Origin: Eubacterium sp.
Lineage (GTDB): Bacteria > Bacillota_A > Clostridia > Peptostreptococcales > Anaerovoracaceae
Direction: 5' to 3'
DNA: 7,970 bases
Assembly (NCBI GenBank): GCA_017425345.1
Contig: JAFOML010000050.1
Span: 1 to 7,970 of the forward strand
This document shows, piece after piece, positions 6,048-7,970 of the stretch. Position 1 is the first letter of the stretch, and each line of letters starts with the position of its first letter. The translations under genes and the position numbers were made by a program. The notes beneath the pieces were generated by a model. The model made no database searches and was not told where the DNA came from. It saw only the letters and a list, made by a program, of their open reading frames with translations.

Positions 6048-6074
6048 CGTACTTCCCCTCCTGAAGGCAACCTG

Positions 6075-6149
6075 TTACTCTACTGCTGCCAGCGCCTGTT
6101 CCAGATTCTCCGGCTCGTTATTCCACTGCTGCCAGCGCCTGTTCCAGAT
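6075..6149 (-). repeat. Short tandem duplication of the metY 3' end
   Basis: A 25-bp stretch is identical at 6082-6106 and 6125-6149 (offset 43 bp). The similarity continues with two mismatches through a TAA stop in each copy. In the coding direction the first copy encodes the real end of MetY (LEQALAAVE, stop 6118-6120). The second, 43 nt later and therefore in a different frame relative to metY, reads NLEQALAAVE with its own stop at 6075-6077. The second copy is not translated from metY and appears to be vestigial. It ends about 28 bp upstream of the start of the 174-aa gene and leaves that gene's Shine-Dalgarno intact. Confidence 0.85.
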
Positions 6150-7395
6150 CTTCCAGAATATCGTCGATATGCTCAATGCCGACGGACAGACGTACCAGAT
6201 CCGGGCTGATGCCGCCTGCGAGCATTTCCTCGTCGGAAAGCTGCTGATGCGTGGCGTTCGCCGGATGCAGGATGCAGGTGTGCGCATCGGCAACGTGGGT
6301 GGCGATCATGCCAATCTTCAGGTGCTTCATGAATACTTCCGCGCCGGCTCTGCCGCTCTTGAGTCCGAATGCGATTACACCGCAGGTTCCGTTCGGCATG
6401 TACTTCTGTGCGCGCTCATAATACGGGTTGGACGGCAGTCCCGGGTAGTTGACCCATGCCACCTTCTCGTGGCTTTCCAGATACTCGGCAACTCTCTGCG
6501 CGTTGCTGCAGTGACGCTCCATGCGGACGGCCAGTGATTCCAGACCGAGGTTCAGGAAGAATGCGTTCATCGGTGCCTGAATGGAACCGAAGTCACGCAT
6601 CAGCTGTGCGGTCGCCTTGGTGATGAAGGCGCCTTCTTTTCCGAAGCGCTCCGCGTAGTTGACTCCGTGATAGGACTCATCCGGTGTCGTCAGTCCCGGG
6701 AACTTATCCGCATGCGCCATCCAGTCGAATCTGCCGCTGTCGACGATCGCGCCGCCGACGGCTGTATCGTGACCGTCCATGTACTTGGTCGTGGAATGGG
6801 TCACGATGTCTGCGCCCCACTCAAACGGTCTGCAGTTGATCGGAGTTGCAAAGGTGTTATCCACGATCAGTGGAACCCCGTGCGCATGCGCTGCTTTAGC
6901 AAAACGTTCGATATCAAAAACCTTCAGAGCCGGATTCGCCAGCGTCTCGCCGAATACACACTTGGTGTTCGGCTGGAATGCCGCTTCCAGTTCCTCATCC
7001 GTGCAGTCCGGATCGATGAACGTAAAGTCGATCCCCATTCTGCGCATCGTCACGTTGAACAGGTTATAGGTGCCGCCGTAGATCGCAGCGGATGCGATCA
7101 CGTGGTCTCCGTTCGATGCCAGATTGAACACCGAGAAGAAGGAGGCTGCCTGTCCGGAGCTCGTCAGCATAGCGGCGGTGCCGCCTTCCAGCGCTGCGAT
7201 CTTGGCAGCGACCATGTCGTTGGTCGGATTCTGCAGTCTGGTATAAAAGTATCCTTCTTCTTCCAGTGCGAACAGCTTGCCCATGTCCTCGCTGGTATCA
7301 TATTTGAATGTGGTGCTCTGAATGATCGGAATCATTCTGGATTCTCCGTTCTTCGGAGTGTAGCCTGCCTGGATGCACTTGGTTTCTGTTCTCAT
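6118..7395 (-). CDS. metY: O-acetylhomoserine sulfhydrylase (O-acetylhomoserine aminocarboxypropyltransferase)
   Basis: A PLP enzyme of the Cys/Met metabolism family that makes homocysteine from O-acetylhomoserine and sulfide, the direct sulfhydrylation route to methionine; cytoplasmic. At 425 aa it has the usual MetY length, longer than MetB/MetC (about 380-400). Motifs: the phosphate-contacting YTRLQNPT (51-58), SSGQAA (79-84), the cofactor aspartate in LIVDNTFATP (176-185), and the Schiff-base lysine K204 in HSTTKYMDGHDTAVGG. The C-terminus has the typical RLSVGIEHIDDILEDLEQAL end. Related activities of the same fold (methionine gamma-lyase, cystathionine gamma-synthase) are less likely from length and the N-terminal TKCIQAGYTP. 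The start ATG (7393-7395) follows AGAGG with 7 nt spacing. It has its own promoter, with a palindrome in the spacer. Its last codons and stop are duplicated just downstream. Confidence 0.94.
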   Translation of the reverse strand: MRTETKCIQAGYTPKNGESRMIPIIQSTTFKYDTSEDMGKLFALEEEGYFYTRLQNPTNDMVAAKIAALEGGTAAMLTSSGQAASFFSVFNLASNGDHVIASAAIYGGTYNLFNVTMRRMGIDFTFIDPDCTDEELEAAFQPNTKCVFGETLANPALKVFDIERFAKAAHAHGVPLIVDNTFATPINCRPFEWGADIVTHSTTKYMDGHDTAVGGAIVDSGRFDWMAHADKFPGLTTPDESYHGVNYAERFGKEGAFITKATAQLMRDFGSIQAPMNAFFLNLGLESLAVRMERHCSNAQRVAEYLESHEKVAWVNYPGLPSNPYYERAQKYMPNGTCGVIAFGLKSGRAGAEVFMKHLKIGMIATHVADAHTCILHPANATHQQLSDEEMLAGGISPDLVRLSVGIEHIDDILEDLEQALAAVE

Positions 7396-7436
7396 GTGTT
7401 TACCTCTCTTACCAAAGTATTTCTGTAACTAAATGT

Positions 7437-7465
7437 ATTTTATACCAATAAAGTGGTATTTGCAA
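7437..7465 (-). promoter_or_regulatory. metY promoter with a palindromic operator candidate in its spacer
   Basis: On the minus strand, TTGCAA (-35, 7460-7465) and TAAAAT (-10, 7437-7442) are 17 bp apart. The 18-bp inverted repeat ATACCA-N6-TGGTAT (7442-7459) occupies the whole spacer and touches the -10. A further TACCAA half-site (plus strand, 7410-7415) lies in the leader about 15 nt upstream of the ATG. The leader is only about 35 nt long, so no SAM riboswitch or T-box fits. Control by a DNA-binding repressor responding to sulfur status is a reasonable inference; the regulator is not identified. Confidence 0.65.
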
Positions 7466-7480
7466 TCACCTGCCGTGCAA

Positions 7481-7533
7481 TGGCGGCTCTTGATTGGCGG
7501 CCTTCGCGCTGCAGTCCAAGATTGGCGGCCCTT
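7481..7533. repeat. Direct repeats of a TGGCGGC motif upstream of metY
   Basis: Three related short repeats occur in this non-coding stretch: TGGCGGCTCTT (7481-7491), TGGCGGCCTT (7495-7504) and TGGCGGCCCTT (7523-7533). The last two share the 11-mer GATTGGCGGCC, 28 bp apart. The reverse complement GCCGCC follows at 7597-7602 and 7641-7646, so the motif switches orientation to the right. No gene is recognised here. A 114-codon plus-strand open frame that crosses the stretch has a composition typical of chance. Confidence 0.6.
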
Positions 7534-7541
7534 GCAATTGT

Positions 7542-7627
7542 AATCACCACGCTCCCGGCGTCAAGGGCCCTGCAAGCGGCCTTCACAACCAGCGTTGCCG
7601 CCCTTGACCCCAGTCGCGCTGGTGATT
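7542..7627. repeat. Nested inverted repeats able to form a long stem (possible structured RNA or cruciform)
   Basis: The outer arms AATCACCA (7542-7549) and TGGTGATT (7620-7627) are perfect complements. Inside them, GTCAAGGGC (7560-7568) pairs perfectly with GCCCTTGAC (7600-7608), and GCAA (7572-7575) can pair with TTGC (7595-7598). Two alternative pairings compete: CAAGGGCC (7562-7569) with GGCCCTTG (7527-7534), and ACCAGCG (7588-7594) with CGCTGGT (7617-7623). No poly-T tract follows on either strand, so it is not an intrinsic terminator. It matches no RNA family that I recognise. The transcribed strand, if any, is unknown. Confidence 0.5.
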
Positions 7628-7687
7628 CTTCCTCCGGTAAGCCGCCTATGTGTCTTTCTGCCTGGATGCGGGGGGACTATCCTAGGT

Positions 7688-7713
7688 CGAAGGAGCCGCT
7701 TTCGTCTCCTTCG
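7688..7713. repeat. Compact 8-bp hairpin
   Basis: CGAAGGAG (7688-7695) is the perfect complement of CTCCTTCG (7706-7713) across a 10-nt loop. On the minus strand the loop contains a C-GAAA-G tetraloop, which would make a stable RNA hairpin. No T-run follows, so it is not a terminator. An 8-bp palindrome AGTGCACT sits just to its right (7718-7725), before the tandem repeat array begins. Confidence 0.5.
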
Positions 7714-7732
7714 TGGCAGTGCACTCCTGGCG

Positions 7733-7970
7733 TTTGCGTCAATATGTCGCTGACGGTTGCCAGACTGGTGCTCTGCGCTCGGGGTGCTCTTGCTTGACGC
7801 AAATATGCCCGGAATTCCAATGGTTTTTGCGTCAATATGTCGCTGACGGTTGCCAGACTGGTACTCTGCGCTCGGGACACTCTTGCTTGACGCAAATATG
7901 CCCGGAATTCCAATGGCTTTTGCGTCAATATGTCGCTGACGATTGCCAGACTGGTACTCTGCGCTCGGGA
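7733..7970. repeat. Tandem array of 93-bp units with internal 10-bp inverted arms (continues past the window)
   Basis: Units start at 7733, 7826 and 7919; two are complete and the third is cut by the window end after 52 bp. Units 1 and 2 differ at five positions (7770, 7784, 7785, 7786, 7824), and unit 3 differs from unit 2 at one visible position (7942); all are transitions. Each complete unit has perfect arms TTTGCGTCAA (7733-7742) and TTGACGCAAA (7794-7803 in unit 1) enclosing 51 bp, followed by a 22-bp linker containing GGAATTCC. Both arms are followed by (A)TATG. The whole unit is conserved, which rules out CRISPR (no variable spacers). The length is a multiple of three, so one minus-strand frame stays open with a 31-residue period, entering from beyond the window and stopping at 7677; coding is possible but weakly supported. 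Confidence 0.9.

Follow-up and report, generated by a model that had tools for sequence, protein, structure and literature searches.

At the right-hand end of the window, the term used here for the whole 7,970-nucleotide stretch of DNA analysed, a 93-bp unit with inverted 10-bp arms is repeated in tandem, and the question raised by this locus is what kind of element such an array represents. To judge from the analyses below, it looks like an ordinary array of its kind, resembling non-coding repeat clusters known in other bacteria.

Tandem Repeats Finder (TRF) and a direct-repeat search placed the array at 7728..7970, with a period of 93 bp, 2.6 copies, 94% matches, 0 indels and a score of 437. 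The sequence stops at 7970 within the third copy, so 2.6 copies is the visible part only. The arm TTTGCGTCAA starts at 7733, 7826 and 7919 and the arm TTGACGCAAA at 7794 and 7887; all five are exact, and their orientation alternates with a start-to-start spacing of 61/32 bp. These positions delimit a first 71-bp element copy at 7733..7803, where the TTTGCGTCAA and TTGACGCAAA arms enclose 51 bp, and a second of the same length with the same arms at 7826..7896, for which folds were also used; a third copy at 7919..7970, recognised by TRF and its arm position, is cut by the sequence end. The 22-bp linkers between them occupy 7804..7825, with GGAATTCC in the middle, and 7897..7918, which differs from the first linker by one transition. 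The first-pass annotation, which described two full units and one partial unit with perfect 10-bp inverted arms in regular alternation, was thus accurate, and its figure of 88 of 93 identical positions between the full units (7733-7825 vs. 7826-7918) was reproduced by counting in its own phase. Its statement that all differences are transitions holds for the six that lie within 7733-7970 (five between the full units and one in the partial third copy), but a seventh, at 7732 just outside, is a G/T transversion; as for the recent amplification that it read from this pattern, six of six transitions agree with it but count as weak evidence for recency. Over the 57 positions common to the copies, copies 2 and 3 show 2 differences, copies 1 and 2 show 4, and copies 1 and 3 show 4, which are too few for the growth route of the array to be read from them. 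The probability that seven variable sites would all miss the 20 arm positions is ~0.17, so the arms show no significant extra conservation within the window.

Each unit combines two nested symmetries. One is the 71-bp hairpin, in which the arms surround 51 bp. The other, absent from the earlier annotation, is a 42-bp composite palindrome with the layout TTGACGCAAA-7-GGAATTCC-7-TTTGCGTCAA (10-7-8-7-10), in which the 8-bp palindrome GGAATTCC is exactly central. It covers linker 1 and both flanking arms at 7794..7835 and, going by sequence and arms, recurs across linker 2 at 7887..7928. This palindrome has 15 symmetric pairs out of a possible 21, a level that 2 of 2000 shuffles attained. Perfect inverted repeats with non-overlapping arms of 10 bp or longer appeared in 15 of 5000 dinucleotide shuffles of one unit taken as circular, and 14 of 1000 shuffles were as symmetric as the complete circular unit, in which 46 of 93 bases are symmetric. 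Because such values are rare among shuffled units, we do not attribute the inverted symmetry to chance. When folded as DNA, both hairpins are more stable than most shuffles (z -1.8 to -2.8), and the RNA folds of the array are modest (z -1.3 to -2.5).

One relative of the array was recovered. A single-sequence protein search with a minus-strand frame gave P0001 as the sole match (E 1.1e-6; 2633 candidates), a 96-aa metagenomic ORF present on three contigs, the longest of 2779 bp. Another minus-strand frame of the array found no match in the protein search, and an alignment search with P0001 in the query retrieved nothing beyond P0001 itself. Among the offsets tested (12-65), P0001 matches itself best at 31 residues (18/65 identical), which corresponds to 93 bp, and its similarity to the array opens at the arm-encoded residues LRQ. 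Mismatch to the window DNA was counted as a lower bound, by giving each residue the nearest codon, and the arms of P0001 were inferred from residues. The minimum was 2/40 bases in the arms, 7/44 in the linker and 32/105 in the spacer, vs. ~53% in each class for residue-shuffled P0001, and none of 2000 shuffles had an arm value this low. Judged from residues, the arms would be the best-conserved part of this sole relative found. The left edge of the array in the window is an arm or lies at most 5 bp from one, and the edges that can be judged, this one with its 5-bp uncertainty and the start of P0001 with residues only, lean to the 71-bp form. The perfect 10-bp inverted arms may be the ends of the element, as terminal inverted repeats are in a MITE; what bears on this are these two edges, the one uncertain by 5 bp and the other residue-only.

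We therefore favor, at a probability of slightly more than one half, the reading that the array is a non-coding intergenic cluster that arose when a 71-bp arm-bounded hairpin element was locally amplified in tandem together with a 22-bp linker. It is preferred because the symmetries are rare in shuffles, the case for coding is weak, P0001 keeps both period and arms, the edges fall at or near arms, and clusters of REPINs provide a precedent. The 71-bp piece bounded by perfect 10-bp arms would be the founding element, and the 22-bp linker, as the middle of the second palindrome, would have been copied along with it. Copies may have accumulated by slippage or unequal recombination, and the arms would matter through a putative role in hairpin formation or protein binding. 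Points against this reading are that no dispersed copy was seen in the rest of the window, that the RNA folds are modest, that the arms are not significantly extra-conserved within the window, that two array frames score above the wrong-frame median for codon usage and that the window proteins scanned include no recognized transposase. The first-pass annotation had proposed a protein-binding array, a cruciform-forming element or a tandemly amplified REP/MITE-like element; of these, the last is best supported in the form of an arm-bounded hairpin element amplified in tandem, and REP membership is not supported, for lack of an unpaired tag. As it stands, the array is a local repeat, and its main use would be as a seed for genome searches.

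The rival that survives best, though we rate it well short of an even chance, is a plain minisatellite, that is, a random piece of intergenic DNA that slippage duplicated, with the arms only aiding that slippage and no element, binding protein or function involved. Few, near-identical copies are what it would predict, and the searches for others are in keeping with it. No further copy was found in the rest of the window (best unit scores 20 and 24, vs. a mean of 21.6 and a maximum of 34 for 100 shuffled units), blastn of the array against plasmids and phages gave no match, and no homologous array was seen in the genome-contig scan or in the six viral-contig scans that targeted it. The genome-contig scan returned two stretches, from a Chloroflexus MAG and an Undibacterium MAG, each with a single site and no array in the surrounding 301 and 277 bases. 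Viral-contig scans with the unit start, the conserved piece and the linker piece returned 0 each, the scan for arms facing each other returned L001 and L002, and the scan for arms around 10-36 bp returned L007 to L010; all of these viral loci carry one exact arm pair apiece, and TRF detected no array of the present unit on L001 and L002. The hairpin of L009, considered as a relative, is perfect and has 16 nt in common with one palindrome half (E 0.054 in blastn against the loci retrieved); we took it as chance because, as a terminator would, it sits where apparently convergent ORFs meet, and because it had been selected by the pattern. What a private duplication does not predict, however, is P0001, a separate repeat of equal period with the arms best conserved.

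It is also conceivable, although we consider it unlikely, that the array belongs to an undescribed family of miniature palindromic elements in a Clostridia-like lineage with its own mobilizing enzyme, which would insert as a 71-bp hairpin, grow into 93-bp arrays, and be analogous to but independent of the REPIN/RAYT system. Were the element mobile, a small repeat family would be added to a bacterial group on which our literature search joining REPIN, RAYT and Firmicutes gave no match. A search of viral contigs with a P0001-alignment pattern produced 17 stretches and one with a sulfhydrylase pattern produced 1, none of them upheld by tblastn, and neither the genome-contig scan nor the viral scan for the neighboring gene revealed a homologous locus lacking the array. 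With tblastn, the array frame retrieved 2 plasmid and 10 phage records and P0001 retrieved 6 from plasmids; every one of these matches had E ≥0.4 and lay under annotated genes. A known structured RNA was rejected on the Rfam results, which contained no match for 7400-7970 at E up to 1 and none for the whole window at gathering score. Full-text literature searches on arm and linker words listed matches that were unrelated by title, and a search on Clostridia tandem repeats gave no match. The earlier remark that its author knew of no named element with this sequence agrees with the Rfam result and with the titles of the literature matches listed, and the array is seemingly undescribed, no prior description having been found in the searches made.

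Every identified gene of the window is encoded on the minus strand. An O-acetylhomoserine sulfhydrylase family gene (6118..7395, minus strand; TIGR01326, E 3.8e-173) has the array on its upstream side, and 337 bp separate its start codon from the first arm. The other identified genes encode a glutamate dehydrogenase, cut by the window start, a pyrimidine-nucleoside phosphorylase, a phosphopentomutase and one unnamed protein. The PDB entries closest to the glutamate dehydrogenase are 1bgv/1hrd, from Clostridium symbiosum, and a Clostridia-like host is therefore likely. One window protein has a weak phosphoesterase match under the cut-off, another is presumably RmuC-like, and a tRNA search of the window gave nothing. 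At 7541-7626, in the interval from the sulfhydrylase gene to the array, is a second, longer imperfect hairpin with ends AATCACCA / TGGTGATT and inner segments GTCAAGGGC / GCCCTTGAC. Folded as single-stranded DNA it has a z of -4.9 on the minus strand (0/200 shuffles as stable) and -3.4 on the plus strand. This hairpin has no Rfam match, and its 17-mer occurs in 35 viral stretches whose blastn matches are at most 24 nt and which are unrelated beyond the search word. Direct 16-bp copies, GATTGGCGGCCTTCGC and GATTGGCGGCCCTTGC, lie 28 bp apart at 7492-7535 in the same intergenic region as the array. At 6074-6154 there is a 38-nt direct repeat (43-bp spacing, 89% alike), in which the 3′ end of the sulfhydrylase gene, including the stop codon, is duplicated just downstream of the gene.

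The main functional rival is a regulator-binding array, which is possible but, in our estimate, unlikely. The arms would be repeated sites of a dimeric DNA-binding protein, which perhaps controls the 6118-7395 gene, or the array would titrate a regulator; a binding array of this kind would amount to a naturally occurring operator with multiple sites. Five exact sites at a regular 61/32 spacing fit this idea, 32 bp being about three helical turns, whereas 61 and 93 bp are not whole turns at 10.5 bp per turn. The array is also at least 337 bp from the start codon, and neither a regulator nor a transposase (including RAYT) was recognized among the window proteins scanned. Some encouragement comes from L001, where both arms occur 43 bp apart and end 44 bp ahead of a helix-turn-helix gene (an 88-aa piece of which matches PF12844 at E 6.5e-14), and from one stretch of L002, where the arm core was seen several times by eye (two arms and one 1-mismatch site by pattern search). 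L001 would at least show that such an arm pair can occupy the position expected of an operator. However, both loci were selected by the arm pattern itself, and blastn shows no other similarity to the array in either. As observations on these loci in their own right, the inverted TTTGCGTCAA pair at 10429-10491 of L001, shortly upstream of the helix-turn-helix gene, is perhaps a phage-regulator operator pair. The stretch at 10520-10720 of L002 holds several TGACGCA-containing motif copies by eye (one near-match by pattern search), some of them followed by CGGTTACC; mechanically called ORFs overlap it, and it could be an iteron or operator cluster.

That the array is the 3′ part of a minus-strand protein-coding gene with 31-residue repeats is very unlikely. 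The number 93 is divisible by three, the P0001-like frame (7677..7970, minus strand) is open to the sequence end, the similarity to P0001, a predicted protein, falls in that frame, and Pfam gives HTH_31 below its threshold (E 0.0039, 17.9 bits vs. a cut-off of 27). Against this, half of the array's six frames are open, and no Pfam or NCBIfam match over the cut-off was obtained in those three. We scored codon usage against seven gene stretches from this window. All six array frames fell between -1.0 and -0.07 bits per codon, vs. at least 0.098 for 47/47 gene slices of the same length, which were also in the training set and are flattered by it. The wrong-frame slices (n = 235) had a median of -0.52 and a maximum of 0.28. 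The P0001-like frame, at -0.83, was under that median, while two array frames exceeded it (-0.07 and -0.09), the latter being the open minus-strand frame two bases on. AlphaFold2 gave the P0001-like frame a mean pLDDT of 58.8 and a pTM of 0.41, on the weak basis of a two-sequence alignment. Since all six frames score below every gene slice, the array is probably non-coding, and on the ORF list, protein search and codon usage the P0001-like open frame is judged likewise. The case that the first-pass annotation had named against itself, a conserved coding repeat, finds a similar protein, P0001, in one frame, yet that frame scores poorly for host coding. An assembly artefact at the contig end can practically be dismissed, for although the sequence ends inside the repeat, the copies differ in register at several sites and P0001 is a separate repeat of equal period.

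The preferred reading, local amplification of an arm-bounded hairpin element, can be set beside several known repeat systems. CRISPR arrays consist of palindromic repeats at regular spacing with unique spacers; the present repeats are also palindromic and regularly spaced, but their spacers are near-identical, unlike those of a CRISPR array. REPs are defined, in the available portion of one account, by a terminal GTAG or CGTC that stays outside the base pairing, and are small intergenic palindromes, at times in tandem, with loops of 2-3 bp in many GTAG families (some longer) and 4-5 bp in CGTC families (PMC3733652). The palindromes of the array are likewise small, intergenic and in tandem. Unlike tagged REPs as that portion presents them, however, the array has its CGTC inside a paired arm, has no GTAG in the arms, and encloses 22 or 51 nt between them (PMC3733652). 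REP membership is not supported, the unpaired tag being absent, and the phyla named for REPs in the same portion do not include Firmicutes (PMC3733652). BrickBuilt of Porphyromonas gingivalis is described as a minisatellite inside a MITE, with a 23-bp unit repeated without spacers and found 19 times in one genome (PMC4596501). The array resembles it in being intergenic and in tandem with small inverted-repeat ends, and differs from this 23-bp, 19-locus element, as there described, in its 93-bp unit (PMC4596501). REPINs, according to the accessible sections of the paper concerned, are REP doublets in which inverted short repeats enclose a less conserved spacer and form a hairpin (PMC3116915). 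When set against those sections, the array has no REP tag, and neither an RAYT partner among the window proteins scanned nor a dispersed copy in the rest of the window was recognized (PMC3116915). The 71 bp between the GI-doublet 16-mers given there and the 71-bp element here are probably a coincidence (PMC3116915). Paired inverted copies that form a hairpin, as in REPs and REPINs, are nonetheless present in the array. Ordered REPIN clusters, in the same sections, consist of near-identical hairpins that follow one another in tandem, each with its flanks, and the array, with its inverted, hairpin-forming arms repeated in tandem together with flanking sequence, is like them (PMC3116915).
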